A stretch of 59,204 bases of DNA from a virus, in IMG/VR virus record IMGVR_UViG_3300029448_000035, positions 1 to 59,204 of that record; one strand, written 5' to 3'. The notes beneath the pieces are model-generated. The model worked only from the letters and a program-made list of their open reading frames with translations, did not search any database and was not told the DNA's origin. The position numbers were made by a program, and so were the translations under genes. Positions within the stretch are counted from its first letter, which is position 1; the number at the start of each line of letters is the position of its first letter. Of this stretch, positions 3,187 to 54,454 are shown one piece after another.

Positions 3187-3812
3187 TGATGCAGAATAGT
3201 ACAATGTCTGACATGATCAGACAAATGATGGAGCAGAAGCAGGGTGGTCAGCGCGTTCGTCGCGACAAAGACATGCCCGAAGAAATGATGATGGGGCAGG
3301 ACGCCTCTACCGTAAGGCAGGAGCAGGCCCCTGACGGGAGCATGCGGGAGTTCGTGTGGTACACCCCAGAAGGTGACGGCCCCATGTATGACGCTCCCGA
3401 CTCTGAATGGGAGAGCCAGACTGGTGCTATCAAAATCTACGGTAATTGGAACGAGTACGCCCAGGGTCAAGACGACCAGGGTGTCATGTTCCTCCCTGAC
3501 GATCAGTTCCCCTACAGACAGGGAGAGAACGGAGAGTTCATGCTCGACGAGTCCGTGAAAGAAGGGTCTATGCAATCCCCCCAGTTTGAGGAGACCATGC
3601 GCGGAAGAGAAGAGGGTGCCGAAATGGGCAGGAACCTCGGTGGTCCTGGGGCGTCCAAAATGGAAGACCTCATGCAGAAGCTTGCTGACAGGAACAGGAA
3701 GATGGGGATGGGGGGTAAGATTTACCGAAAGGGAGGTAAGTTCCCAGATCTCACTGGAGACGGAAGAGTCACCTTTGCAGACATCCTTAAAGGAAGAGGA
3801 GTAAAGCGATGA
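3186..3812 (+). CDS. KGG-module protein with C-terminal dockerin/EF-hand-like tail (208 aa)
   Basis: A Met/Gln/Asp-rich N-terminus is followed by an ordered region with EFVWYTPEGDGPMYDAPDSE and GEFMLDESVKEGS. The C-terminus carries GGKIYRKGGKF, then PDLTGDGRVTFADILKGRGV. The D-x-T-G-D-G-x-V-T-x-x-D spacing resembles the calcium loop of dockerin or EF-hand repeats. The same order (KGG then DLxxDGxVTxADxLxGRG) is familiar from small marine phage proteins. A virion accessory role is likely, with the C-terminal loop as a docking device; this is inference. Confidence 0.6.
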   Translation: MMQNSTMSDMIRQMMEQKQGGQRVRRDKDMPEEMMMGQDASTVRQEQAPDGSMREFVWYTPEGDGPMYDAPDSEWESQTGAIKIYGNWNEYAQGQDDQGVMFLPDDQFPYRQGENGEFMLDESVKEGSMQSPQFEETMRGREEGAEMGRNLGGPGASKMEDLMQKLADRNRKMGMGGKIYRKGGKFPDLTGDGRVTFADILKGRGVKR

Positions 3813-4030
3813 AAGCAAAAAAGAACCCCAGAAAGGTCGCTAGGCAGGCCAGGAAAGAAGATAAGTATACGGCTCGCAATAAAAGGATGCCTGATCCCAG
3901 GACTCCTGAGCAGAAGGCATCTGCATACCGCAAGCGCCGCAACAAGCGTCTCGTAAGAGGAGCGGCAGGGCTTATTACTGGCGCTGTCGTAGGAGGCGGA
4001 GAGTACAACGTCAGGCAGCGCAAGTCATGA
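3809..4030 (+). CDS. Small basic protein (73 aa)
   Basis: Begins MKAKKNPRKVARQARKEDKY and stays strongly basic to about residue 50 (RMPDPRTPEQKASAYRKRRN), then has a short glycine-rich hydrophobic stretch, GAAGLITGAVVGGGEY, and ends in basic residues. The hydrophobic segment could be a weak membrane segment. ATGA overlap with the previous gene. Function unknown. Confidence 0.55.
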   Translation: MKAKKNPRKVARQARKEDKYTARNKRMPDPRTPEQKASAYRKRRNKRLVRGAAGLITGAVVGGGEYNVRQRKS

Positions 4031-7731: not shown

Positions 7732-7805
7732 TGGGGCGTAGTTCAGTTGGTTAGAGCGTCTGTCTTATACACAGAAGGTCGAGGGTTCGAACCCCTCCGC
7801 CCCAA
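7732..7805 (+). tRNA. tRNA-Ile (anticodon UAU)
   Basis: Acceptor pairing TGGGGCG/CGCCCCA, D stem GTTC/GAGC, anticodon stem TCTGT/ACAGA around loop CTTATAC, T stem GAGGG/CCCTC with loop TTCGAAC. The anticodon is TAT, reading AUA directly. CCA is not encoded. This anticodon is rare in bacteria, where AUA is normally read by a lysidine-modified CAU tRNA. AUA codons are frequent in the late genes. Confidence 0.9.
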
Positions 7806-7817
7806 CAATTAAATACA

Positions 7818-7949
7818 ATGGCAAAACAAAACAGCACTTACGAAGCGAAGAAGAAGGTCAGCAGGCCTGGCGTGCATGCCAAAACCAAATCGTCGAAAAA
7901 CAAGTCCTCTCAGAACTACAGGAAGGCCTACAGGGGACAGGGGAGGTAA
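7818..7949 (+). CDS. 43-aa basic protein between two tRNAs
   Basis: Translates as MAKQNSTYEAKKKVSRPG then VHAKTKSSKNKSSQNY and ends RKAYRGQGR. I remember similar tiny basic proteins with the same G-V-H-A-K-T-K and Y-R-G-Q-G-R elements in other Bacteroidota phages, which supports this as a real, conserved gene. It is too short for most gene callers. Function unknown. Confidence 0.65.
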   Translation: MAKQNSTYEAKKKVSRPGVHAKTKSSKNKSSQNYRKAYRGQGR

Positions 7950-7964
7950 CTCTTCCCTATCTTT

Positions 7965-8038
7965 GCCCCTGTAGCTCAGTTGGATAGAGCAACAGCCTTC
8001 TAAGCTGTGGGTCCCAGGTTCGAACCCTGGCGGGGGTA
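7965..8038 (+). tRNA. tRNA-Arg (anticodon UCU)
   Basis: Acceptor GCCCCTG/CGGGGGT (with a G-U pair), D stem GCTC/GAGC, anticodon stem ACAGC/GCTGT around CTTCTAA, T stem CCAGG/CCTGG with TTCGAAC. Anticodon TCT reads AGA. CCA not encoded. It ends 3 nt before ATG 8042. Confidence 0.92.
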
Positions 8039-8041
8039 CAA

Positions 8042-33436: not shown

Positions 33437-36400
33437 ATGGACGAAAAGTACTTTAAAGTAGTAGACAAGATGGTTAGTCAGGGAAAATCCTCTGACTACA
33501 TTCTTCAGGTATTGAACATGCAGCAGGCTGGGGTTTCCGAGGGAGACCTCGCCGCGTACATGGAACTAAAAAAAAAAGATTCAGGGTCGGGCGGACAAGG
33601 TTCAACACCTGGACCTTCTACTGGATCCAGTTCGGTAGACGGAAATTCGGAATCTACTCTGGGGTTTTCTGAAGCCTTTCAGCTCTCTGGAGAGCAGGGG
33701 GTTAGGATGAACGAGGTGGTTCAGGAAAAAATAGAAGACGACCCCACTGGACCAAGCATTACTCCAGACGACCCCAGATTTGACGAAGCCAAAGAGAGGG
33801 CAGAAGAAGCAAAGAGGTCGGGGTCTCTAAACAGGACTACAGAAGAAAGGACTGGGCTTGATTACGAATCCTACTTTGAAGAAAGAAATCTAGAAGAAAA
33901 TGTCGTACTCAATGACATTTGGAACTGGACTGAGTCTAAGCTTAACGAGGTCATGCCTGAGACCTTCGATAAGCTTGTTAACAGCGGAGACCTTCAGCAA
34001 GAGGTCGCTAGAATAAAAGATAGGCCTGACCTTCAGATTGGACAAACCTTTATAGACTACGGAGAGGCGGACATGATTCGAGAGCCTGGTGCTCCGTTTC
34101 TTGTCCCCGACTCGGCCAATGCGCCTCAATTCTATGTAGATGCGGATTTTAGGGCGGACAAGGTTTCTGAACTAAGAAACTATTGGGTTCAGGAAAAAGC
34201 AAATCAGTTTCTCCAAACGGAGTTTAAGGATCAGGTAAAGGATTACGTAAAAGAAAAGCACCCCGATCTTTCAGAAGACGCCCTTGAAGCTCTTACTGAC
34301 AAGATGTACTATGACTTCGGCATCGATGTCGACCTCGACGACGACAACAAGATTAACGAACAACCATGGGTACAGGACTTCGTGAATAGCGCTGGATCGT
34401 CCACAAGAGACTTGTTTGTTGGGGCGGTTCAGCTTGTTGCTGGAGGCATTAACGAAGTCGCCAATATAAACGACAGGACAAGAGCAGCCAGAAACGCAAG
34501 ATTGATATCTGAGGCTGGGAATTTTGGACCAAGAAACACTACTGTGTTTACGGGTGACAAAGAAGGCATGCTTACCGCCTTTGGAAACGGAAACTACGGT
34601 GCAGGATTTTGGCAGCTTGGAACTGGTATCGGTGAGGTTATACCTCAGACTGCTGCTATCGTAGGGTCTACAATGGCTGGAATGCCCAACGTTGGACTTG
34701 GTCTTGTAGTTGCCGCTGGGGGTGGGGGCGCTTACGCTCAAGCCGCTCTTGATCCCAACTCAACAGGTTTTTCTAGACTCGCTTACGCGGGTAGCGCGAT
34801 GGGCATAGAGTTCGTTGGGGGTAGAATTCTGCAAGGAATCACTAAGGGTAGCTCCAAGTGGATGCTAGAGAACATATCAAGGCTTGAGAGAAGAGGGCTT
34901 AGCAGGCAGGTGCTTAACAGTGGAAGAAGGTCCTGGCTCCACCCTCAGGCTGTCAGGGGTGTGTCTAACGCAAGTCAGCTTAGGGGTAGTTCTTCTTGGT
35001 TTGCTCATTCTCGCGCACTACTAGATACATGGAAGGCAACCTCCATGAGGCTTGGAATGGGGTCTTCTACAGAGGCGGCAGAAGAGGGTATTGCTTATGC
35101 TTTTGACGAGTTGGTTTCAAAGCCCCTGATACTGGGGCAGGAGTCAGACTTCAACCTGATCGATCTGTTTGAGCAAAGTATTCTCGGAGGATTTGGAGGT
35201 GCCATGGCTGTAGGTGGGGGTTTCGCTCACGGAAACTCTGTGGCTGGAGCAAGAAGCAGGGCCAACGCCAACGCTTTAGACATAAGAAATCTGGAGAGAA
35301 GGGCTGATGAGCTTGAGGTTAAGGCTCAAGAGGCTATCAACGAAGCAGAGAAAAGGGGGTATCAGCGGATGGCCGACAGCAATAGACTGAGGGCTCATCG
35401 CATGACCGAGGCAAATGCTAGGTTCTACGACATGCTTCAACTGAGACACCCTCAGTTGTTTGAGGCCGTTCAGAAGTTGGATCAGGAGATCAATGCCATG
35501 TCCAACATGATTGATCAAAACCAGACTCCAGACACAAACGTAGACCTTGAGTCTGAACTCAACAAGGCTGTTCAGGAGAGACAAAAGCTGGTGAACAGCG
35601 TAGCCTCTGAGACCGTCACCCTGACCGATCAGGAAAACGAAACAAAGTTTGATGCCGCTGCAGAGGCACAGATGAGTCAGCTTGACTTGGATGTCGCTCA
35701 GGTTGAGGCCGCAGCAGACGACATGATGAGTAGGATGCAGCGAGGAGAAACTACTTCTGACGCTGTTGATCAAGCATTTAAAGTTGCAGAGCAGGCAAGG
35801 CAGAAGAGGTCTGAGGTCAAGGCTCTTATCGAACAGCACAACGAAATAAAGGAGCAGCTGAAGCAAGAGGACGTAGATCCAGAGGTTGCTGCGGACCTTC
35901 AAAATCAGCAAGAAGACATTAGGCAGGAGCTTTCTCAAAAGACTGGGGTTGCGGCGGAGGCCTTTGGGTCTGTGTCAGAAGCAGAGACTCAGATCGAAGG
36001 GGAGGCACGACTTACTCAAGAGTGGTTGGACGGAACCATACAGGGCCTAGAGAACTCCTCCCTTTCTTCCGATAGGGTTAGAGAGATACTCGATGGGGAG
36101 GGTGACTTCGCCATGCTTACTGCGGAGAACCCCAACGCAAAAACTGTAAGTGAGGGCAAGAACATTCAGTTCAACAGGATGGCTCTGAGGTGGCTTGTAA
36201 GCAGAGGGTACGAAGGGAAGATTCATCGTATCGTAGGTAAGTACGATGCGGGGGAGAACAGCTTCCTTGTGGAGGATATGACCATTGAGGATTCTATTGA
36301 GTTCGCCAAGAAGTTTGGTCAAGAGAGCGTAGCTCACAGGACGGGTCTTGTGCAGGCTGACGGCTCCATCAACCTGTTCGAGGGTAAGCCCGTATATCAC

Positions 36401-39400
36401 GAGACCAACCCAGACAACTTCTTCTCGGTCATCAAAGACACTGAAGGGAACCAGACCTCGTTCTCGTTTATTCCTTCTGACCAGTACATGGATGCTGACG
36501 GCAACACCATTACTGGAGAGGAGTACACCGAAAGGTCCAAGCAAAACGCTAGGGACTTTTCTGACATCGAGGCTGCCATTCAGGAGAATCCAGTGCAGGA
36601 AGAAGGGCAGACTGAGCAAAAGGAGGGTGTAAATGCGGCTGAAGATGGATACGTCACGGTTCGCACAAACTCAGATGGATCCTCTGCTGTAGTTGCGGGA
36701 CAAAACGGAGTCGAGACTGCGGCTGAAGCCAAGGCTATAAACAACCTCACCAAACTGGTCAAGGCTCTGTTCGGGGACAATGTGGAAGTTAGGATCTACC
36801 AGAGTCAAGATGCGGCAGACGCTGTCGAGGCTGGCTCTTGGGGTGGCCTATTCACAAAGTCAGACGGTAAGAGGGTGATACACATAAACCCTCAGGCGAT
36901 TAGAGATAACGCAAGGCTGGAAGGTGAGCAGTTCAGAGGAGCCCTTAGGGAGAAATCCTTTAAGGAAACTCTCCAAGAGGAGGTTATGCACTCCGTCATA
37001 GGTGCAAGCCTATTTAACCTCTACATGAAGTCCCCCAGGCTGGCCTCCAGGATGGAGAGCCTAGTCATGAAGCTTGCCGAAAAGGAGAACCTTGATGATG
37101 GAAGCCTTGGACTGAGAGAGAGAGTTGAGTCGAAGAAAGCTCAGTATGGGAGAGGAGCAATTACTCAGAAACAAAAGGCGGAGGTATTTGAAGAGACTGT
37201 CATTGAGTTTCTCTCTGCGTACGCGGCTAACCCAGACAGGTTCCAATTCTCTCAAGTAGACAAGTTCAGGATTGCACTGAACAAGATGCTTGTCGACCTG
37301 TACGGAGCTATGGGTAAGACGTTCCAGATTGATAGCGTCGATACCCTCTTGGAAATTGGAAAGAAGTTCTCTGCAGCTCAAGAAAGAGGTGAGACCTTTA
37401 GGTTCGATGTCGAGGAAGCTGGGGATCAGAGAGCGTCAGAAAGAATATCCCCCACCCGAATCCCGACGAACGAGAACGGCAAGATTACTGTCAAGATGAA
37501 GGAGACGTTCTATAGGTACGACATAGGATTCAAGAAGGACATTGGTAGTGAAGAGATCACTAGGGAGTTTAACGATGTATGGCACTTCATAAACTGGTGG
37601 AAGAAGTCCACCAAAATGGGTGAGGATCAACACTTCTTTTCATTCGAAACCACAGACGGAACCCCAATCGACGTCGAAAGAATCAAAAACTACAAGTCTA
37701 GAAGAAGTGATCGAATAACGTCTGTTGAGTCATCAAAGCAAATTAACAGCATGATCTCCGATGCTGTGTCTCAGAAGATCATATCCCCTGTGGTTGCCGC
37801 TAGGATTCGCAACAAGATAAAAAGGACTCTTAACAAGATGTCCGTTATGGAAAGAAACAACAGGGTTAACTCTGACAGATATAAGAGGGAGGTTGCGCTC
37901 GTAAGAAGATTTGAGGAAAATACTGAGCAGCTAATACAGAAAGAAGCGAGAGCAAAAGGAAAAGAGTTTATTAGGGGCGGAATGGATGACGTGTCCAGAG
38001 CCTCTCACTACCTAAGGCTTGACCTAATGGGTCGGCTTGGCGCTGATGAGTACATGACCCGCAGGGCCAAGATAAAAGACTCTATACAGAGCTTGACTGG
38101 AATCAATCTGAACAGAGTAAAGAATAAGCTTGAGGAGGAAATACTTATTCGTCAGGCAATCATGAACATGCCTGAACACGTTCCCCCTGGCTACTCTGCT
38201 GGTGAGTTTGGGAGGTACAATGACTTAGAGTCCGTTAATGCCTCTTCTAAATTGGCTGACCTTGCCATGTACTACACGGGAGAAAGGTCTTCGGAGGTAA
38301 TAAAAGAAGTTTTTGAAGGAGAGAACCCGATTAAGTTTTTTGAAAACTACCATGAGGCAGCGACTACTAGAGTAAAAGAACTGATTGAAAGTGGCCGCCT
38401 TGACGGCACTGTTCAGGATAACATGATGAGACTTCACTTCATCATGGCATTTACTTCTGCTCAAAATAGGGCCAACCCGAATGTAGAGGTTGCCATGCAA
38501 ATCCTTGAACTGGCGAACAAAGACAAGGGTAGAAGAGGGGCGCACCTGATTCTGCCTCAGGCTATGATCGACTCCATGAAAAAGAGGGGGACGTTTCCTG
38601 GATTTGACAAAAAGAACTTGATTCCAGGTCACACTCTCTTAGGTGCCAGAAACTCGTTCGACAAGCTTAACGCTCTGATACAGGGGGACTTGAGTGCGTA
38701 TAGCAACAAGCAGATACCAGCAACCGTAAAAGACGCTCTCGTTAGAGCAACTGGAACCAGAGGAAACTTTATTGATGACAACGGAAACGTTATGTGGGAT
38801 TCCGTTATGAAGTTTCTTTTGTCTCCTTACGAGGGCTCTAGAGTTAGAAAAACTGGAACTGTAATGGCTCAGGAGTTGTTCTCTGCGAAGCTGGGTGCGT
38901 GGGCGCTTAACCTATCTCAGTACAGCATGCCCGATCTAAGTGTCGCGGATACAAAGCTTTCAGACGTCCTCACTATAGACAGTCACGTCATGAGAACTAT
39001 GTCCATGCTGTTGGGGAGTAATTACGGATTGGACATTGAAATGCAGATTGAAGCCAACATAGAAAAGCTGGCTGGATGGCTTGTTGAAAACCTGCCCACT
39101 CAAGGTGAATTCGGAAAGAGAAGAAGGTCTTTGAAGAGCAATATGTCTTCATATGGTAGGATATACACCACCTTTCCTGTTTCTGACATTGCGAAAAGAA
39201 CAGGTGTTGCTGCCATAGACATTGCTAGAGACTATTTGTCTACGATCTCAGACGCAGACACAGCAACAAAGCTTGAGGGCTTGCTTTCTGAAGCCATTAA
39301 CCCAACTACAAAGTTCTATGCAGACGATCTTACGAGAACTAGGCAGTTGGTTACAGCTGTTTCCGATGGCGAAATGACACCATCTCAGTTTGGTCAGCTC

Positions 39401-42400
39401 TTGTTTGCAGATAGTCAGGTTTCCACGGCAGAGATACTGAAGGGTAAGGCTCTAACCAGCAAGTACGAGACATATGCGTCCGCTATAAAGGCTTTGCCAA
39501 AAGACGAGGTCAGAGCATCTTCAAGGCTTACTCGACCCCTTTCAAACGGAGACGCTACTGAGTCTCCACTATACAGGCAGAGAACCCTTGATGAGGCTTC
39601 GAAAGTGCGCCCCAACCTCACTATTGATGACGAGGCCGTAATGGAGGCCTTGAGTACAGACGCAACCTCAAGGAGAATCATGGCTAAGGATTCTCAAATA
39701 TCTGAAGGTCAGAAGGTTGGTGTTAGGCTCAACCTCAACGTAATGAAGAACACAGGGGTTCCCGTTCAGACCATGCATGACAAGACCGCATCGGGGGAGG
39801 CGCTTAGGTACGCTGCTGCCGTTACGGTGAAGAACCCTACACTGTATGTCAACCAGAACGCAAGGAGAAAGATCCTTACCTTCCAGGAAAACAAGTTCCC
39901 GATGGCTAGTGTCAACGGGGAGTTCCTCACTGACAAGTTGAATCAAACAGATTTCAACGGTGTGAAAGCATTCTTCAATCCCTTTAAGCACAACGTGTTT
40001 GTAGACGCTTCTGGAAGACCGATTAAGTCTGCTGATGAGGCTACGATTATAGGTAGCGTAGTCTACCTCAGGGGAAACATTGAGTACTACGACTTCAACG
40101 ACCCTATTCTTTTTGAAGGTAGGACTGAGACGGAAGCTCAGAAAGAGAAGAGAACCAAGAGAGGCCCCAAGTATGACAGGGCGCTCAAGCGGTTCGCTGC
40201 ATACTCTAGTAGAATGGGGGTAGAGTTCACCAATCAGGAGGACTTGATGGAGGCATACGACAACATGCCTATCGCCTCTCAAGTTGCGATGAGCGAAAGC
40301 GAAGTCGTAGACAACATGGAGGAGGCTCAGAAGAGGGCAAGCGTCAGGCTCAGGCTTAGGCAGACGGCTGGTCGTGCATCTAGAACGTACCAAGGTGAGA
40401 CCAGAAAAACCATCCTCAACAATCCAAACAACTACTTTACACCTCAGGTCCTCAAGCAGCTCAAGCAACAGCTGGGGAACAAGACAGATGCGGAGCTGAT
40501 CGACATCATGACTGATGACGGTCTTGGTAGGCTGTCTCAGCGCAACGACGACTTGGGTGTTTTGGCTGCAGCAGAGATGATCAACAGGGCTGTTGCGAAT
40601 GGTGACATGGACGCTATACCAGACCTCATCGAGGAGGCAGCTGCCATGGGTACTACAGCTGGTAGGATACTGCGACACCTCAGGGAACTCAGGGGAAGCA
40701 CACCCAGGGGGATTGAGATGGTCATCCTGAAGGAGGTTGAAAGAAGAGGCAACTCCCTGTCGGACGAACAGAAGTCCAGACTCCAAAAGATGGCGGCTGA
40801 GATATTCAGGCTGGGAGCAGAGCACGAGGAGCTCATGAAGCGAGCTATCGCTGGAGAGGATTTAGAGGCTGAGCTGAAAGCTAAGACAAAAGAATACAAA
40901 GAGGCTGAGAAAAATCTAGAGACATTCGCTAACGCAGTGATCGAAAGAGGTTGGGGGCAGATCGGAGGATTGCTGATACAGGGTAATCTTCTTACTCCTA
41001 TGTCTCAGATAACCAACGTGGGGGCGAACATGGTCAACGCATTGGGCAAGGTAGCGGTGGACGCATTGGCTCTCCCGATAGAAAGGCTAGTCAATGTCCT
41101 TGGCATAGACTCCCCGATGAAAAGAAACTACTCTATCAACGCCTACATACATGGTATGAGAAGGTTTGGGGTGGGATTCATGGAGGCTATAGACCAAATT
41201 AAAACTGGTCAGGAGGCTGATGTAACGGAGTGGAGAATGGCTAGGGGCTTTGCTCCATTCAGGTCGCTTATGTCCGCTATGGGTAAAGGAGACTTGCCGC
41301 TTGGTCCTGATGGTAAGGTTTCTCTGAACACTCGCGCTAAGCTGTTTGTTCAGGGTACTCTCGGTATTCCTGCTGAGATCATGTTCCGATTCCTGTCTCT
41401 CGGTGACACTCCATTTAGGAGGTATGTCGAGGGCATTGAGCTGTATCAAATAGGTAGGAATCAGGGTCTTGAGGGTGAGGCACTGAAGAACTTCTTGAAG
41501 TTTCCGACCAAGCAGGCCATGGAGATGGCAGAGGCGGAAGGAAAGAAGCTCACCTACCAAGAGGAGACCATTGCATCGAGGACGGCAGATGACTTTGTGA
41601 AATTTGTGGAGAGGATGACGGCTAGATTCTTCGATTGGATTCCAGGGACCGATGGTAACGCTATAGCTAGATTCTTGATTAGGTCTAACATTCCTTACAG
41701 AAGGACCCCAGCAAACATCTTGTACGACACCCTGACGTTCGCTACACCCTATGTGGCTATCCCAAGAATGATGTCAGAGCTTAGAAATGGTGACGCTCGT
41801 AGCGCATCACAAACCTTGGCTAAGTCCATGATCGGCGGAATGGCTACGCAGGTTACGCTAATGATGATCAGGGAAGGTCTCATATCTGGTGCCATCGAAT
41901 GGAATGAGGATGAGGAGAGAAACATGGCTTACGACCAGTTCCCCCCGAACAGCATCAACATAAGCGCCCTTAACAGGTGGATCAACGGAGAGTCTACAGC
42001 TAAACAGGAGGACGACTACTTCATCTCCTACATGAAGCTCGGAATCATAGGCACCGTGATGGGAAGTGTTGTGAAGGGTGTAGACAGAGGGGAGTTGAAG
42101 AAGAGAGACTACAGTGGAGACAAGTGGGCGTCTCATGTTGTGCAAGACGCATTCGGAATACAGGCGTTTAGTTCCATCGCCCACATGATGGATCAGAGCT
42201 TTGTTCAAGGAATGAACAACTTCATACAAGTGATCTCTACTGGAGACGAAAGGACTTGGGAGAACTGGCTGGGCACTACGTTCCAAGCTATGTCTGCAAC
42301 GGTCCTTCCGAACACCATGACTGCTTTCTACAGGGCAGAGAGGGATTACCTTCCTGACAGCAGGATAACAAAAGACATGGGATTTGCAGAGAGGATCCTG

Positions 42401-42994
42401 AAGAAGTTTGAGTACACGATTAAGTCCAGAACGTTTGGCCTCGGCGAACTGCCCATCAGGAGAAACTGGAAGGGAGAAAAGATCGAGCAAACACCGAGAG
42501 GCACAAACGGTATAGCTTACCAGCTGTTCGACATCACCAAGGCTAGACAAGGTGAAGCTGATGCAGTGTCCAACGAAATCTGGAGGCTGTACGAGCAGAC
42601 AGAGGACCTGACACAGGCGTGTGGAACCCCTGGGTACGCGCAGAAGAGAAAGATCAACGTGCCTAACATAAGAAAGAAGCATCTCAAGATGCTTGAAGAA
42701 GAGGGTCTGGAGTATACGTGGGTAAACGACGAGGAGTTCATGGCTGATGCGCTGTACCTAAACACCAATGACCTCAACAGACTGATGGAGGCTTCAGGTA
42801 AGGAGAGGTACATGGAGATAGAAAAATTGATGGCTACGGAGGAGTACAACGCAATGGATGACTTCGAGAAGGTTGAAGCTCTCAACGATCTAAACGGAGG
42901 GTTCAACGGTGCCGTCGAGATAAACAACGGGCAGTTTAGGAATCACACCACGGTCCTGTTCGATATCATGCAAGAGAAGTATGAGCAGAGATAA
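33437..42994 (+). CDS. Giant polyvalent internal virion protein (3185 aa)
   Basis: One sixth of the genome. Visible parts: short helical N-domain (1-45), Gly/Ser linker, a Gly/Ala-rich hydrophobic region (about 395-470), a coiled coil (about 615-860), a zincin-like segment LQEEVMHSVIGASLFNLYMK (about 1177-1196) with downstream EETVIEFLSAYA, a KLGAWALNLSQ...LTIDSHVMR element, a large-polyvalent-type domain starting GQKVGVRLNLNV (about 2095) through NPFKHNVFVDASGRPIKSAD, and amphipathic C-terminal helices (NLLTPMSQITNVGANMVNAL). Polyvalent proteins of this kind are packed in the head and ejected first to condition the cell. The zincin motif lacks the first His of HExxH, so peptidase activity is doubtful. 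No RNA polymerase motif seen. Confidence 0.72.
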   Translation: MDEKYFKVVDKMVSQGKSSDYILQVLNMQQAGVSEGDLAAYMELKKKDSGSGGQGSTPGPSTGSSSVDGNSESTLGFSEAFQLSGEQGVRMNEVVQEKIEDDPTGPSITPDDPRFDEAKERAEEAKRSGSLNRTTEERTGLDYESYFEERNLEENVVLNDIWNWTESKLNEVMPETFDKLVNSGDLQQEVARIKDRPDLQIGQTFIDYGEADMIREPGAPFLVPDSANAPQFYVDADFRADKVSELRNYWVQEKANQFLQTEFKDQVKDYVKEKHPDLSEDALEALTDKMYYDFGIDVDLDDDNKINEQPWVQDFVNSAGSSTRDLFVGAVQLVAGGINEVANINDRTRAARNARLISEAGNFGPRNTTVFTGDKEGMLTAFGNGNYGAGFWQLGTGIGEVIPQTAAIVGSTMAGMPNVGLGLVVAAGGGGAYAQAALDPNSTGFSRLAYAGSAMGIEFVGGRILQGITKGSSKWMLENISRLERRGLSRQVLNSGRRSWLHPQAVRGVSNASQLRGSSSWFAHSRALLDTWKATSMRLGMGSSTEAAEEGIAYAFDELVSKPLILGQESDFNLIDLFEQSILGGFGGAMAVGGGFAHGNSVAGARSRANANALDIRNLERRADELEVKAQEAINEAEKRGYQRMADSNRLRAHRMTEANARFYDMLQLRHPQLFEAVQKLDQEINAMSNMIDQNQTPDTNVDLESELNKAVQERQKLVNSVASETVTLTDQENETKFDAAAEAQMSQLDLDVAQVEAAADDMMSRMQRGETTSDAVDQAFKVAEQARQKRSEVKALIEQHNEIKEQLKQEDVDPEVAADLQNQQEDIRQELSQKTGVAAEAFGSVSEAETQIEGEARLTQEWLDGTIQGLENSSLSSDRVREILDGEGDFAMLTAENPNAKTVSEGKNIQFNRMALRWLVSRGYEGKIHRIVGKYDAGENSFLVEDMTIEDSIEFAKKFGQESVAHRTGLVQADGSINLFEGKPVYHETNPDNFFSVIKDTEGNQTSFSFIPSDQYMDADGNTITGEEYTERSKQNARDFSDIEAAIQENPVQEEGQTEQKEGVNAAEDGYVTVRTNSDGSSAVVAGQNGVETAAEAKAINNLTKLVKALFGDNVEVRIYQSQDAADAVEAGSWGGLFTKSDGKRVIHINPQAIRDNARLEGEQFRGALREKSFKETLQEEVMHSVIGASLFNLYMKSPRLASRMESLVMKLAEKENLDDGSLGLRERVESKKAQYGRGAITQKQKAEVFEETVIEFLSAYAANPDRFQFSQVDKFRIALNKMLVDLYGAMGKTFQIDSVDTLLEIGKKFSAAQERGETFRFDVEEAGDQRASERISPTRIPTNENGKITVKMKETFYRYDIGFKKDIGSEEITREFNDVWHFINWWKKSTKMGEDQHFFSFETTDGTPIDVERIKNYKSRRSDRITSVESSKQINSMISDAVSQKIISPVVAARIRNKIKRTLNKMSVMERNNRVNSDRYKREVALVRRFEENTEQLIQKEARAKGKEFIRGGMDDVSRASHYLRLDLMGRLGADEYMTRRAKIKDSIQSLTGINLNRVKNKLEEEILIRQAIMNMPEHVPPGYSAGEFGRYNDLESVNASSKLADLAMYYTGERSSEVIKEVFEGENPIKFFENYHEAATTRVKELIESGRLDGTVQDNMMRLHFIMAFTSAQNRANPNVEVAMQILELANKDKGRRGAHLILPQAMIDSMKKRGTFPGFDKKNLIPGHTLLGARNSFDKLNALIQGDLSAYSNKQIPATVKDALVRATGTRGNFIDDNGNVMWDSVMKFLLSPYEGSRVRKTGTVMAQELFSAKLGAWALNLSQYSMPDLSVADTKLSDVLTIDSHVMRTMSMLLGSNYGLDIEMQIEANIEKLAGWLVENLPTQGEFGKRRRSLKSNMSSYGRIYTTFPVSDIAKRTGVAAIDIARDYLSTISDADTATKLEGLLSEAINPTTKFYADDLTRTRQLVTAVSDGEMTPSQFGQLLFADSQVSTAEILKGKALTSKYETYASAIKALPKDEVRASSRLTRPLSNGDATESPLYRQRTLDEASKVRPNLTIDDEAVMEALSTDATSRRIMAKDSQISEGQKVGVRLNLNVMKNTGVPVQTMHDKTASGEALRYAAAVTVKNPTLYVNQNARRKILTFQENKFPMASVNGEFLTDKLNQTDFNGVKAFFNPFKHNVFVDASGRPIKSADEATIIGSVVYLRGNIEYYDFNDPILFEGRTETEAQKEKRTKRGPKYDRALKRFAAYSSRMGVEFTNQEDLMEAYDNMPIASQVAMSESEVVDNMEEAQKRASVRLRLRQTAGRASRTYQGETRKTILNNPNNYFTPQVLKQLKQQLGNKTDAELIDIMTDDGLGRLSQRNDDLGVLAAAEMINRAVANGDMDAIPDLIEEAAAMGTTAGRILRHLRELRGSTPRGIEMVILKEVERRGNSLSDEQKSRLQKMAAEIFRLGAEHEELMKRAIAGEDLEAELKAKTKEYKEAEKNLETFANAVIERGWGQIGGLLIQGNLLTPMSQITNVGANMVNALGKVAVDALALPIERLVNVLGIDSPMKRNYSINAYIHGMRRFGVGFMEAIDQIKTGQEADVTEWRMARGFAPFRSLMSAMGKGDLPLGPDGKVSLNTRAKLFVQGTLGIPAEIMFRFLSLGDTPFRRYVEGIELYQIGRNQGLEGEALKNFLKFPTKQAMEMAEAEGKKLTYQEETIASRTADDFVKFVERMTARFFDWIPGTDGNAIARFLIRSNIPYRRTPANILYDTLTFATPYVAIPRMMSELRNGDARSASQTLAKSMIGGMATQVTLMMIREGLISGAIEWNEDEERNMAYDQFPPNSINISALNRWINGESTAKQEDDYFISYMKLGIIGTVMGSVVKGVDRGELKKRDYSGDKWASHVVQDAFGIQAFSSIAHMMDQSFVQGMNNFIQVISTGDERTWENWLGTTFQAMSATVLPNTMTAFYRAERDYLPDSRITKDMGFAERILKKFEYTIKSRTFGLGELPIRRNWKGEKIEQTPRGTNGIAYQLFDITKARQGEADAVSNEIWRLYEQTEDLTQACGTPGYAQKRKINVPNIRKKHLKMLEEEGLEYTWVNDEEFMADALYLNTNDLNRLMEASGKERYMEIEKLMATEEYNAMDDFEKVEALNDLNGGFNGAVEINNGQFRNHTTVLFDIMQEKYEQR

Positions 42995-49590: not shown

Positions 49591-49933
49591 GGAGTATATC
49601 TGGGGCCTTGAGGTTTGCATTCCACTTGCGCTTTAGTTTCTTGGACATCCATACCATGTCTACCCTCTGTCCGATCTTCTCCCACGAATCTTGTCGAGTC
49701 AGGATGACGCAGTTATCACCCTCTTTGTTCGGAATGAACAGGAGCAGGAAGTCGGTGTCGAATTTAGGGACGGATACCGTGAAGTCTTTGTCGTAGTTCT
49801 CCGCGTGAACGTAGAAGGACATGCGCCTTCCGTTCTTACAGGCAGAGAAAGTTTGGGGGCTGAGAAACTCGATGTCCCTCAACCCCCATTCCATCATGGC
49901 GTATAGCCCAAACCCCTTAGAAAGGAAGGTCAT
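49580..49933 (-). CDS. Hypothetical protein (117 aa)
   Basis: MTFLSKGFGLYAMMEWGLRD to the end KAPDILHDS. Central beta-type strands (RMSFYVHAENYDKDFTVSVP, DFLLLFIPNKEGDNCVILTR) suggest a small nuclease- or OB-like domain, but no motif is complete. ATG 49933 overlaps the SSB-like stop by 17 nt; ATG 49894 (MMEWG) is an alternative. The operon position argues for a DNA-related role. Confidence 0.6.
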   Translation of the reverse strand: MTFLSKGFGLYAMMEWGLRDIEFLSPQTFSACKNGRRMSFYVHAENYDKDFTVSVPKFDTDFLLLFIPNKEGDNCVILTRQDSWEKIGQRVDMVWMSKKLKRKWNANLKAPDILHDS

Positions 49934-50222
49934 CCTGAGCCACTTGCTGGCTGGCGGCCTTAGCCTCGCGCTTCTCCTTGGCAGCTTCGCTGTTCGGATT
50001 GAAGACACGGGCACAGGCCTTGCCGTTTTTACTCATGAAGAGAGTGAGGTATACGTTACCTCCTCGCCCTTCTTCATCACGGCGTGTAACGTACTGGTCA
50101 AGCATGTCCTTGAGTTCGTTGTCCTTGAGTCGGACGGACCATGCGATCAGCTCGTTATTGTCATTGTACTTGGGGTCGTCAGCCCAGCCGACGAGAACGG
50201 AGTCATACTTAGTATCGCTCAT
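49917..50222 (-). CDS. SSB-like protein with DDLPF tail (101 aa)
   Basis: Begins MSDTKYDSVLVGWADDPKYN and ends QQVAQDDLPF. The acidic tail ending D-D-L-P-F matches the conserved C-terminal tip of bacterial single-stranded DNA-binding proteins that recruits partner enzymes. The body has beta segments (GGNVYLTLFMSKNGKACARV) fitting a compact OB fold. ATG 50222 gives an ATGA overlap with the upstream micro-gene; the longer in-frame start at 50312 is rejected for that reason. It sits amid recombination genes. Confidence 0.7.
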   Translation of the reverse strand: MSDTKYDSVLVGWADDPKYNDNNELIAWSVRLKDNELKDMLDQYVTRRDEEGRGGNVYLTLFMSKNGKACARVFNPNSEAAKEKREAKAASQQVAQDDLPF

Positions 50223-50356
50223 AATAGTGTATTGATTAGAATTGAAAAAATTGAGATTACGGTTGTGTAGATGAGTACCATGACGCCCCCTATAAGGAGC
50301 GGAGTACCCCATTCAGATTTTAAGTTGGAGATAATCCGATGAAGGTTGGGAGTCAT
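50219..50356 (-). CDS. Micro membrane protein (45 aa)
   Basis: Reads MTPNLHRIISNLKSEWGTPL, then the hydrophobic stretch LIGGVMVLIYTTVISIFSIL to the end. A single membrane-spanning segment is obvious. The start lies inside the exonuclease end (44-nt overlap) and the stop makes an ATGA overlap with the SSB-like gene, filling what would otherwise be a 90-nt gap. Function unknown. Confidence 0.55.
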   Translation of the reverse strand: MTPNLHRIISNLKSEWGTPLLIGGVMVLIYTTVISIFSILINTLL

Positions 50357-51101
50357 TAATGAGGAATGATTGAATTTTACTTACTGCATCGTTGAACTTC
50401 ATTTCCCCAGAAAAGAGAGTTTCTTCGGAGCACTCAATAATTGCGGGAAGATACGGCGAGGTCTTTTCTTGGGCAAGCCAATAGAACCTGTCAATATCGA
50501 ACACCTTTGTGTAGATGTAGGCCTGAATGTCGTAGCTGAAGTCACGGACGCTGTACCTAAACTTAGAGATGGACTTGGTCGACTTAGAGTCTACAATAAA
50601 CCCATCACCCAAGCAATCCAAGAAGCCTTTCACCTTGACAGGGCCAAGCATCTCGTTAAACTCTACCTGATACTGCCCGTCAGACAAGTACATAGAGGAT
50701 AGTCCACATGCATCAAGCCTCCCGATCATGTCGTTAGCCATCTTCCAGTCCTCAGGAGACACGAGCTTATTCCCGTTGGATTCAGCCTCCTCTACGAGCT
50801 CCTTCTTGCGCTTCTTGAACTCGGCTGACATAGTGGGCCGTTTCATCTGCCTTACAGCGGATGTACACATGTCCAGGATCTTGTCGTCAGAAACAACCGT
50901 GTACAGATCCATGGCCTTTTCACGCTCAAACAGGAGCATGTCGTAAAGAGTTCCGAAATCCAATGCAGGGGACTCAAACTTGAGTTCACGCTTCATGTAC
51001 AGGTCGAACTTAGCCATGTCGTCAAGCGCAACCTTGAGAGAGGAGTACGACAAGTGTGCCTTGCCGTACCTCTCTTCGAGGGCAGATGGAATATCAATCA
51101 T
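50313..51101 (-). CDS. PD-(D/E)XK exonuclease, RecE/RecB-like (262 aa)
   Basis: Motifs in order: HLSYSSLKVAL (about 16-26), E149, GFLDCLGDGFIVDSKSTKS giving D162, D171 and K173, and DIQAYIY (about 191-197) with the Q-x-x-x-Y of RecB-family nucleases. Such phage exonucleases resect double-strand ends to produce 3' tails for a single-strand annealing protein; the likely partner is encoded at 51,243. All catalytic positions appear intact. Confidence 0.78.
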   Translation of the reverse strand: MIDIPSALEERYGKAHLSYSSLKVALDDMAKFDLYMKRELKFESPALDFGTLYDMLLFEREKAMDLYTVVSDDKILDMCTSAVRQMKRPTMSAEFKKRKKELVEEAESNGNKLVSPEDWKMANDMIGRLDACGLSSMYLSDGQYQVEFNEMLGPVKVKGFLDCLGDGFIVDSKSTKSISKFRYSVRDFSYDIQAYIYTKVFDIDRFYWLAQEKTSPYLPAIIECSEETLFSGEMKFNDAVSKIQSFLINDSQPSSDYLQLKI

Positions 51102-51246
51102 TGAAATAGGGGTGAAGTGATAATGCAGTTGGACACCAGATACCTACGTACAGGGAGGCCATTTGACTCCCCGTAAACCAAAGGGTTAGGGAGAGTGTCA
51201 TCGAAGCCAGCGCAAAGGCCAGCAGGAATTTCTGTGTATTGTTCAT
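51094..51246 (-). CDS. Micro membrane protein (50 aa)
   Basis: MNNTQKFLLAFALASMTLSL is followed by TLWFTGSQMASLYVGIWCPT, giving one or two hydrophobic segments. The start makes an ATGA overlap with the upstream annealing-protein gene and the stop overlaps the exonuclease start by 8 nt. Function unknown; one of several tiny membrane proteins in this operon. Confidence 0.55.
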   Translation of the reverse strand: MNNTQKFLLAFALASMTLSLTLWFTGSQMASLYVGIWCPTALSLHPYFND

Positions 51247-51788
51247 CGCACAAACTTTTTAAGTCCAGTCTTCTGCTTGTCAGTCAGCTGGTCACCATAC
51301 TTGGTAATGATGCTGTCGAAAGCCTTTTTCTTGTCAACCGCACCCTTGATGTAGGTCACGGCCTTGTCCATGATCGAGACCTCGTCTTTCTTGGACTTGG
51401 CTGTCGTCGCAGGCTTATCGGGGGCTGAGTCCTGCTTAGCAATCGCATCTTGCACCTCATTCGCAGAAGCGATAGAAGCATCAATACCGATACCAAGCAT
51501 AGCCAGAGCACGCCCTACAGCTGAGGTCTCGCAGTTCTCTACGTAGCTCGTCTTGTTGATGTTGCTTGCGGTCTTCACCTCGTGGGCATGTCCCACTGCA
51601 ATCGTGTGTCCGTCTGCGTCGACGATGGAAGCTCGGCAAAGGCACTCGGCATCGGTGAGCATGGGAAACTCAGTATGGATGCCCCAGTTCTTGTACTGGT
51701 CCTCTTGACGAAAAAACTTGATACGCTCGTTGACTTCGACGTACTGCTTGCCACGGATGTTCGTGGTCTTGAACTTGTAATTACTCAT
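51243..51788 (-). CDS. Putative single-strand annealing/recombination protein (181 aa)
   Basis: Core YVEVNERIKFFRQEDQYKNW, CLCRASIVDADGHTIAVGHA and NKTSYVENCETSAVGRALAM resembles ERF/Rad52-type phage annealing proteins, which have a 'SAxGRALA' helix at the end of the beta-beta-alpha core. A Lys-rich linker then leads to a C-terminal small domain (ITKYGDQLTDKQKTGLKKFV). It lies just upstream of an exonuclease, the classic pairing. Family assignment is from pattern memory. Confidence 0.6.
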   Translation of the reverse strand: MSNYKFKTTNIRGKQYVEVNERIKFFRQEDQYKNWGIHTEFPMLTDAECLCRASIVDADGHTIAVGHAHEVKTASNINKTSYVENCETSAVGRALAMLGIGIDASIASANEVQDAIAKQDSAPDKPATTAKSKKDEVSIMDKAVTYIKGAVDKKKAFDSIITKYGDQLTDKQKTGLKKFVR

Positions 51789-52207
51789 TTGTTTTCAGTT
51801 TGCGGGATTGGGATTGAGTCGAGTTCGTTGCGGAGCACTGCGCACTCCTGTTCTAAAATGTAGATTTGATTTGTGAGGTTAGCAAGGCGGTCTGCTTTGC
51901 TGGTTGCTGAAAGCCGATTGTCTACGATAAGTTTCGCTTTCTCGTATAGGTCTTGATAACCCTTCCAGAACTGAAGGTTATCCATGTGATTGATGGTCAT
52001 GTGTGCTATGGTCGATCGGTCTCGTCTGAGCACCTCTGCGACTTCTTGCTGATTGTCTGCCCAATGAGACAGGGCTACGCCGATGGCGTTACGCGCTTTG
52101 ACTTGGTCTGCCCGCCGACTATCGTCGGGGAGCATGCCAATCGCCGCGTAATAAGTCTCGATGGCTGATAGCATCAAGAGCTTGCGATTGTGTGGGTTGA
52201 ATTTCAT
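51785..52207 (-). CDS. DnaA-domain-IV-like HTH protein (140 aa)
   Basis: DNQQEVAEVLRRDRSTIAHM (about 51-70) resembles the helix-turn-helix of DnaA domain IV, where R-D-R-S-T-I stands for the G-R-D-H-S-T DNA-contact signature. A C-terminal coiled coil (ANLTNQIYILEQECAVLRNE) follows. It could recognise the phage origin or regulate replication genes. No ATPase domain. ATGA overlap with the annealing-protein gene. Confidence 0.62.
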   Translation of the reverse strand: MKFNPHNRKLLMLSAIETYYAAIGMLPDDSRRADQVKARNAIGVALSHWADNQQEVAEVLRRDRSTIAHMTINHMDNLQFWKGYQDLYEKAKLIVDNRLSATSKADRLANLTNQIYILEQECAVLRNELDSIPIPQTENK

Positions 52208-52325
52208 TTGGGATGTGAATTTAGTGTGTTATTGTCTAATCCGCAAGGAAAAAGCGGACTTTGTTTCTTCGGGCTACTCACGGCCTGTCACGGGCTCTCC
52301 CCGCGCACCATACGTCCGCCCTGGG
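52208..52325. other. Short intergenic gap with weak hairpin
   Basis: No gene is evident. A TCCGC/GCGGA inverted repeat (52,240-52,258) is followed on the plus strand by CTTTGTTT. No promoter box was recognised. Confidence 0.4.
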
Positions 52326-52667
52326 TCAGCGTTCTGACTCCGATTCCTTGGTGACTGACTCGTGGATAGCGGCGTACTTAATCATGGAGATGATGACAGA
52401 CTCCATCTTATCGCGCAGGTTGTGCATCTCGATCTTTACGCCATCGTCGTATCCGAAGATGTCGCAACGCTCGTCGATAAACTTCGAGGCAATGCTGTTG
52501 TTGTGTTCGATGAACTGGTGGAGGTGTGCCGATGTGGGAACAGAAGTCCACAGCATTACATCATCTTCCAAGATGTCCTCACAGGCAAACACCTTGGCGA
52601 CAACGTCTTCCTTGGTGTTCTCTGCGGTCATCTCCGCTACGATGCGGATGGCTCGCTCATTTGTCAT
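52326..52667 (-). CDS. Acidic hypothetical protein (113 aa)
   Basis: MTNERAIRIVAEMTAENTKE to the end HESVTKESESER; helical with two Cys and an acidic patch (CDIFGYDDG). Coupled by an 11-nt overlap to the 48-aa gene upstream. No recognised domain. Confidence 0.65.
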   Translation of the reverse strand: MTNERAIRIVAEMTAENTKEDVVAKVFACEDILEDDVMLWTSVPTSAHLHQFIEHNNSIASKFIDERCDIFGYDDGVKIEMHNLRDKMESVIISMIKYAAIHESVTKESESER

Positions 52668-52803
52668 TTGGTCGGTGGTGGATTAGAACTGGGTCACCAG
52701 TGCCGCGCTGGTCGGCAAATTCCCAGTCGGGGGTTACACAAATTTCTCCAGTGCTGAGCTTGTATGCCCAGATGCACTCGTCTTGGGGGTCGGTCACTAT
52801 CAT
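52657..52803 (-). CDS. Small hypothetical protein (48 aa)
   Basis: Reads MIVTDPQDECIWAYKLSTGE then ICVTPDWEFADQRGTGDPVL to HHRPNDK. The aromatic, beta-type sequence looks coding, and it fills the gap exactly, with a TGATG coupling to the upstream stop and an 11-nt overlap downstream. Function unknown. Confidence 0.6.
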   Translation of the reverse strand: MIVTDPQDECIWAYKLSTGEICVTPDWEFADQRGTGDPVLIHHRPNDK

Positions 52804-53036
52804 CAGTCTTTGTTTTCGATTTTGTAGTATTTGTCTGCGAGCTCGTGGTGCGACATGTCCGTCGACATATACTGGTCGAGGAGCTTAGCCTTGTCTCTGT
52901 ATTTGAGTAGTCTGTTCAGCTTAACGCGGGAGTACGCCTCGGCTGAGCGTTCCCTTTTGAGTTCTACGACTGTCTGTACTGCCATAGAGACAGCCGCCGC
53001 CGAAACAAAGAGGACTGCAATTAATGATGTATCCAT
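52803..53036 (-). CDS. Membrane-anchored small protein (77 aa)
   Basis: One N-terminal membrane segment, LIAVLFVSAAAVSMAVQTVV (about 5-24), then a cytoplasmic-type basic helix ERSAEAYSRVKLNRLLKYRD and a C-terminal helix. Single-pass, probably N-out/C-in by the positive-inside rule. Coupled on both sides. Function unknown. Confidence 0.65.
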   Translation of the reverse strand: MDTSLIAVLFVSAAAVSMAVQTVVELKRERSAEAYSRVKLNRLLKYRDKAKLLDQYMSTDMSHHELADKYYKIENKD

Positions 53037-53083
53037 TATCCGATTGTTTTTCCGTAAATCTTTTCTTCTCGCTTCTGGTTCAT
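53036..53083 (-). CDS. Possible 15-aa peptide or leader frame
   Basis: MNQKREEKIYGKTIG, starting at an ATGA overlap with the upstream stop and ending in a TAATG overlap with the next start. It may be a tiny gene or just a coupling frame that carries ribosomes between the two membrane-protein genes. Confidence 0.3.
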   Translation of the reverse strand: MNQKREEKIYGKTIG

Positions 53084-53172
53084 GGTGACACGTATAAGGC
53101 GGCTATAGAAAGTGCGAGTAGGGCGATGGCGGTGTACGCCAGTAGCACCCAGAAACTTGGGCTATCCTTCAT
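53080..53172 (-). CDS. Micro membrane protein (30 aa)
   Basis: MKDSPSFWVLLAYTAIALLA then LSIAALYVSP: nearly the whole peptide is one membrane helix. ATG 53172 overlaps the upstream 52-aa gene by 11 nt, the standard joint size here, and the stop is coupled by ATGA. It resembles small single-pass regulators of membrane enzymes in form only. Confidence 0.55.
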   Translation of the reverse strand: MKDSPSFWVLLAYTAIALLALSIAALYVSP

Positions 53173-53320
53173 CTTGAGTTTTGAGTTTGAGTTTTGCTTC
53201 GTATCCATTGACCATGGCTTCCAGCATGATGACGTACCTGCGGTCGCCAGTCTCTTCGAGACGATCCGTCAGGTGTTCAATCATGGAGAGCATGTCGTTC
53301 ATGTATTCATCGGTTATCAT
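53162..53320 (-). CDS. Small helical protein (52 aa)
   Basis: MITDEYMNDMLSMIEHLTDR then LEETGDRRYVIMLEAMVNGY ending AKLKLKTQDEG. Amphipathic helix pair. It overlaps its upstream neighbour by 14 nt and downstream by 11 nt. Function unknown. Confidence 0.55.
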   Translation of the reverse strand: MITDEYMNDMLSMIEHLTDRLEETGDRRYVIMLEAMVNGYEAKLKLKTQDEG

Positions 53321-54359: not shown

Positions 54360-54382
54360 GGTTGTGAGTGTTTAAATGTTTG

Positions 54383-54454
54383 TACCCCCAAGAGGAATCG
54401 AACCTCTATCTGCGGTTTAGGAAACCGATGCTCTATCCGTTGAGCTATGGGGGC
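54383..54454 (-). tRNA. tRNA-Arg (anticodon CCU)
   Basis: On the minus strand: acceptor GCCCCCA/TGGGGGT (first pair G-U), D stem GCTC/GAGC, anticodon stem TCGGT/ACCGC (outer pair mismatched) around TTCCTAA, T stem AGAGG/CCTCT with loop TTCGATT. Anticodon CCT reads AGG. CCA not encoded. It complements tRNA-Arg(UCU) at 7,965. Confidence 0.88.

Follow-up and report, generated by a model that had tools for sequence, protein, structure and literature searches.

The recombination gene block

The window, by which we mean the whole stretch of 59,204 nucleotides analysed here, is a 59-kb virus record with a recombination block on the minus strand of its right arm. In the direction of transcription the block comprises small genes, a 113-aa gene, a gene resembling DnaA domain IV, the gene for a single-strand annealing-type protein (SSAP), a RecE-type exonuclease gene, an SSB-like gene and, 3' of the last, a primase-helicase gene that matches phrog_18375. 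The original prediction had claimed four small frames in this region and, by coordinates and ORF calls, all four exist as given, on the minus strand. They are listed below with their neighbours and the basis for each assignment.

49917..50222, minus strand: SSB-like protein (acidic tail with a PF tip; alignment of 17 relatives)
50219..50356, minus strand: 45-aa micropeptide gene, predicted single-pass (ORF, coupling geometry, same-frame equivalents, pN/pS)
50313..51101, minus strand: RecE/exonuclease VIII-type PD-(D/E)XK exonuclease (PF12684, phrog_412)
51094..51246, minus strand: 50-aa gene, probable two-helix membrane hairpin (SLTLWFTG..LYVGIWCPT family alignment, pN/pS, AlphaFold2)
51243..51788, minus strand: SSAP (phrog_11717, an annotated relative, gene order)
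51785..52207, minus strand: small DNA-binding protein similar to domain IV of DnaA (motif in a homologue, annotated equivalent)
52803..53036, minus strand: 77-aa protein, predicted N-terminal membrane helix and cytoplasmic tail (conserved in L002; homologue in L009)
53080..53172, minus strand: putative 30-aa single-pass micropeptide (homologues in relatives)

The exonuclease matches PF12684 with 74.9 bits, against a gathering threshold of 26, and phrog_412 (exonuclease VIII) at 6.9e-40. When the SSAP was tested as a Rad52/Erf-type protein, it matched only PHROGs of unknown function, including phrog_11717 (9.8e-35), and one relative, in MW202512, that is annotated as mgM101-like. For the SSB-like gene, the alignment of relatives places the start at 50222 (MSDTKYDS...) and not at the ORF start, 50312, and the acidic tail of the protein ends in DDLPF, of which P100 and F101 do not vary among 17 relatives. 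Its presumptive identity as an SSB rests on this PF-ended acidic tail and on gene order; profile searches gave no SSB confirmation, and a fold search with its AlphaFold2 model (pLDDT 77) listed no SSB and nothing convincing, a result with which an OB fold is still compatible. The DnaA-like protein has no Pfam match above cut-off; its homologue in L026 carries the motif GRDHSTVIHH, and the equivalent gene of MW202828 is annotated dnaA.

The SSAP-exonuclease-SSB order was found again in approximately 140 IMG/VR loci, and the relatives used for comparison (L numbers) are metagenomic contigs. Since the nearest isolates by terminase and primase-helicase are phages of Flavobacterium, Cellulophaga and Maribacter, at an identity of about 40% or less, the window phage likely has a Bacteroidota host; the top terminase match overall is the uncultured MW202828, at 47%.

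Transmembrane character was judged by hydropathy and one AlphaFold2 model. Within the minus-strand block from 44 kb on, no ATG ORFs shorter than 130 aa other than the 45-, 50-, 77- and 30-aa frames show a strong hydropathy peak. By itself, hydropathy is poor evidence, because 24 of the 233 ATG ORFs of 28-80 aa in the six frames of the window pass a similar threshold, a count that would suit chance hydrophobic ORFs in T-rich intergenic DNA; that these genes are real rests instead on their conservation.

A micropeptide gene in the exonuclease/SSB joint

The 45-aa frame opens 44 nt inside the end of the exonuclease gene and encodes a peptide with a basic N side and a helix at its extreme C-terminus. 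Its TGA stop overlaps the ATG of the SSB-like gene as ATGA, given that the latter starts at 50222. Among 98 distinct exonuclease/SSB joints, 86 have an ORF of 24-59 aa whose hydropathy peak reaches 1.6 or more and which stops at the start of the SSB gene or close to it. Under stricter placement rules a same-frame ORF is present in 82 of 93 distinct joints, against 6.5 ± 2.3 expected from shuffles of the intergenic bases only, with dinucleotides preserved. Thresholds were chosen after a first look at the data, and the effect far exceeds any threshold choice. Joints that lack the micropeptide exist, for example in L135 and L139, and in a looser sample, picked by SSB similarity, only 19 of 35 joints were above the hydropathy cut, with many others borderline; the exact frequency of the micropeptide therefore depends on threshold and clade.

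Selection on the frame was measured in 23 independent pairs, using only the sequence downstream of the exonuclease stop. There, pN/pS is 0.29 in the micropeptide frame versus 0.72 and 1.04 in the other two (Fisher p 4e-20). The window and L002 differ at four positions downstream of the exonuclease stop, all of them synonymous in the micropeptide frame, and the peptide is identical there; the N-terminal overlap region differs even between these two. Conservation of the frames in relatives, whose absence the original prediction had named as a refutation, held: besides the same-frame ORFs of these joints, pN/pS for the 45-, 50- and 77-aa frames is 0.11-0.29. Both the shuffles and the frame-specific selection argue against chance ORFs, which we consider vanishingly improbable, and one or both of these tests rule them out for the 45-, 50- and 77-aa frames. 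As judged from the sequences, these comparisons establish that the exonuclease/SSB joint holds a near-core micropeptide under purifying selection.

Across 78 distinct peptides the architecture is constant and the turnover of sequence is fast. Mean net charge is +2.9 before the helix and +0.2 after it, the peptides stop approximately two residues past the helix, and 57 have an Asn within the last eight residues. All 78 share one frame, +1 with respect to the exonuclease, as would suit a +1 frameshift at the end of that gene that fuses the helix to the enzyme and yields a membrane-anchored isoform. However, the overlap by itself locks the frame, the start codon is ATG in 73 of 82 micropeptide ORFs, and an in-frame stop lies no more than 30 nt upstream in 67 of 82. 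Since ATG starts and nearby upstream stops favour independent initiation, such a fusion is very unlikely. Overlap of the ATGA type with the SSB start, found in 40 of the 78, would in turn accord with a role in cis, in which the SSB gene is translated by termination-reinitiation at a rate that translation of the ORF and its stop determine, the peptide as such being of little importance. A pure leader, however, would not keep a hydrophobic helix at a pN/pS of 0.29, nor would it exceed shuffles that keep the T-rich composition, and we regard a role of this kind as unlikely. The size and charge pattern of the peptides are also those of an early small membrane toxin, whether holin-like or type I toxin-like, but the linkage is to replication genes and not to lysis genes, and the NCBIfam toxin models, which cover few families, gave no match for window or relative peptides; we hold a toxin to be quite unlikely.

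A cassette site in the SSAP/exonuclease joint

The 50-aa gene belongs to a family with 12 aligned members, 18 invariant columns and a pN/pS of 0.11-0.13. A family search of IMG/VR found the gene at 15 loci, and it adjoins the SSAP in 14 of the 14 at which the upstream flank could be judged. AlphaFold2 places helices at residues 3-25 and 28-43 (pLDDT 78.6), and the modelled protein is probably a two-helix hairpin; the description of all four products as single-pass is thus not supported for this one. In the window the gene is coupled to the SSAP stop by ATGA and overlaps the exonuclease gene by 8 nt. Of the overlaps originally predicted, that of 8-14 nt is borne out for the 50-aa gene but not for the 45-aa gene, with its 44-nt overlap of the exonuclease; the broader claim of translational-coupling geometry with the recombination genes is supported, ATGA being present at both the SSB start and the SSAP stop. 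That the membrane micropeptide genes are real and translationally coupled is, on this genomic evidence, close to certain.

Among 101 distinct relatives, the SSAP/exonuclease joint is empty in 17 and holds one or two small genes in 84, and an ATGA on the SSAP stop opens 78 of these 84 cassettes. The first cassette protein is of membrane type in 21 and soluble in 63; as so many cassettes start with a soluble protein and 17 joints are empty, a membrane protein at this position is dispensable. The 21 membrane-first cassettes include six TM-HTH proteins, one hairpin-HTH fusion, aligned with the hairpin family and found in a single contig (L075), and one TM-alphaCTD protein (L109), in which an RNA polymerase alpha-CTD-like domain lies behind the membrane helix (PF03118, 2.6e-12). 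The TM-HTH proteins match HTH_IclR/HTH_7, with HTH_IclR at 1e-8 in L017, and in L097 and L138, two nearly identical sequences, a TM-HTH gene comes directly after a hairpin gene. We conclude that the joint is a cassette site, the 50-aa hairpin gene being one of several interchangeable, ATGA-coupled small genes.

Three further observations concern this joint and its surroundings. A soluble family of 90-115 aa (GLYFIKHKDF...AEYHINSKGK.FW....THWAEIETYEY), which may be a DUF551-like domain, is very common in it (L014, L020, L024-L032, L070, L104, L132). An alpha-CTD-like domain without a polymerase subunit occurs in small phage proteins at 2429-2749 of L109 and, by eye, near 2460-2880 of L038. Lastly, in a hairpin-carrying group (L146-L152, L156) the exonuclease gene contains an out-of-frame hydrophobic ORF with a basic tail, for example at 3340-3504 of L156, which is probably passive.

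The 77-aa and 30-aa frames

The 77-aa and 30-aa ORFs precede the DnaA-like gene, from which the 113-aa gene separates them, and are outside the SSAP-exonuclease-SSB block. The placement first proposed, in the joints of the SSB-exonuclease-SSAP-DnaA series, is thus correct for the 45- and 50-aa genes and incorrect for these two. Between the window and L002 the 77-aa frame has a pN/pS of 0.14. The tail of its product gives a weak alignment with the HTH region in the TM-HTH proteins, and we claim no HTH for it because the recognition helix is absent. The 30-aa ORF would be 42 aa long from an upstream ATG at 53208; a start at 53172 is likely, since 35-aa homologues start at the equivalent Met. These homologues (L004, L088, L090) lie elsewhere within the same gene block, and the peptide is also similar to the N-terminal part of a 108-aa L074 protein; the case for a putative 30-aa gene is made entirely by such homologues. 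In L074 the 108-aa protein is encoded at 3525-3851, and the preceding gene encodes what is probably a lipoprotein, in which the lipobox (LLMGC) is clear.

Database and literature searches

For the four ORFs, searches of Pfam, PHROGs, NCBIfam and PADLOC gave nothing above weak noise; the Pfam, NCBIfam and PADLOC collections contain few micropeptides. The 50-aa, SSB-like and TM-HTH proteins had no tblastn match among isolate phages, none of those searched having these genes, and PDB searches with SSAP, SSB, hairpin and exonuclease queries returned nothing usable. When distant exonuclease/SSAP loci were examined, MW202828 had no hydrophobic ORF at the exonuclease end. SSAP relatives from bacterial genomes are distant; in eight of their loci that were scanned, no matching membrane peptide adjoins the SSAP gene. 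A search of the literature for phage membrane micropeptides adjoining SSB or exonuclease genes found nothing specific.

Possible functions of the micropeptides

Of the functions considered, the best fit, as a tentative reading of the gene arrangement, is that the micropeptides tether recombination and replication by linking membrane and DNA. They would sit in the inner membrane, their N-termini facing the cytoplasm, and would be made together with the exonuclease, the annealing protein and the SSB-like protein; the membrane would thereby serve to hold or organise recombination-dependent replication. Some relatives would have the DNA tether built in, as TM-HTH, hairpin-HTH or TM-alphaCTD proteins; the hairpin of the window would act with a separate DNA-binding partner, which may be the DnaA-like protein, the SSAP or the SSB-like protein. 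Tethering had been offered as an option in the original prediction, and the argument for it is mainly that, in the SSAP/exonuclease joint of relatives, a membrane segment is fused to or lies beside a DNA-binding domain, a circumstantial link from which we infer the mechanism. Against it, hardly any soluble portion of the exonuclease/SSB micropeptide is conserved that could bind a partner, the membrane protein of the SSAP/exonuclease joint is dispensable, the hairpin-HTH fusion is confined to one contig and the fold search did not confirm the SSB identity. A broader proposal, that the exonuclease/SSB micropeptides and the SSAP-linked hairpin and TM-HTH proteins form a membrane platform for recombination-dependent replication, clade-wide in uncultured phages, is possible if rather doubtful; were it true, these would be among the smallest replication-organising proteins known.

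The main rival, which we judge nearly as likely as tethering, is that the micropeptides act on a protein of the host inner membrane, such as a transporter, a protease or an anti-phage membrane effector, regulating or inhibiting it through helix-helix contacts, and that they are expressed with the recombination genes since both are required early. The very short, helix-only build of the phage peptides, with a polar Asn near the C-terminus (57 of 78), is like that of bacterial micropeptides that bind membrane proteins, and quick sequence turnover within a constant architecture suits a changing target. However, PADLOC, NCBIfam and Pfam, in which micropeptides are few, gave no match, and a near-fixed place beside the SSB gene in divergent phages exceeds the needs of early expression. 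For inhibition of a host membrane nuclease or defence sensor, the other option of the original prediction, the lack of a PADLOC match speaks neither for nor against.

Membrane tethering invites comparison with phage phi29, whose p16.7 consists of a membrane helix joined to a DNA-binding domain. By hydropathy only, the TM-HTH relatives and the 77-aa protein of the window likewise have an N-terminal membrane segment. The phi29 proteins p1 and p16.7 are membrane-associated (PMC4974454, PMC11476376) and have been proposed to anchor phage replication at the membrane (PMC4974454); the common ground is that both sets are small, early membrane proteins of phages with a link to DNA replication. However, a DNA-binding domain is found in the relatives only, and because the 45- and 50-aa proteins of the window are without one, we place the window proteins outside the p16.7 family. 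Furthermore, the HTH of the TM-HTH relatives is of the resolvase/IclR type, and the replication mode here is that of exonuclease, SSAP and SSB. A TM-HTH profile run against PDB chains listed no p16.7 chain at E values up to 1.

Small accessory genes beside phage recombination genes are also known from P22, where Arf and Abc1 are accessory proteins of the Erf recombination operon and Arf is small, acidic and a suspected DNA mimic (PMC9836394); the peptides described here are, in contrast, basic or hydrophobic membrane peptides. As in operons that pair a RecE/exonuclease VIII (PF12684) with an annealing protein, the exonuclease adjoins an annealing-type protein, but in the window membrane genes intervene. 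Small phage genes were catalogued by Fremin et al. 2022 (cited in PMC11364881), and those of the window resemble them, as far as that catalogue is described there, in being unannotated and conserved; what we add is a fixed operon position, a coupling geometry and fusions to DNA-binding domains.

A phage recombination operon can thus contain tiny membrane genes as an almost constant feature, and these are readily missed, being short and overlapping with adjacent genes. If tethering is true, they offer a simple, testable system for the site of phage recombination; if they block a host membrane protein, they would lead to a host target as yet unknown. More small phage effectors may also be readily found in the cassette site that adjoins the annealing gene.

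Other features of the window

A tRNA-Arg (CCT) gene lies at 54382-54454, inside the minus-strand gene block, and tRNA-Ile (TAT) and tRNA-Arg (TCT) genes lie at 7732-8039 of the window. On the plus strand, an ORF of 3185 aa extends over 33437-42994.
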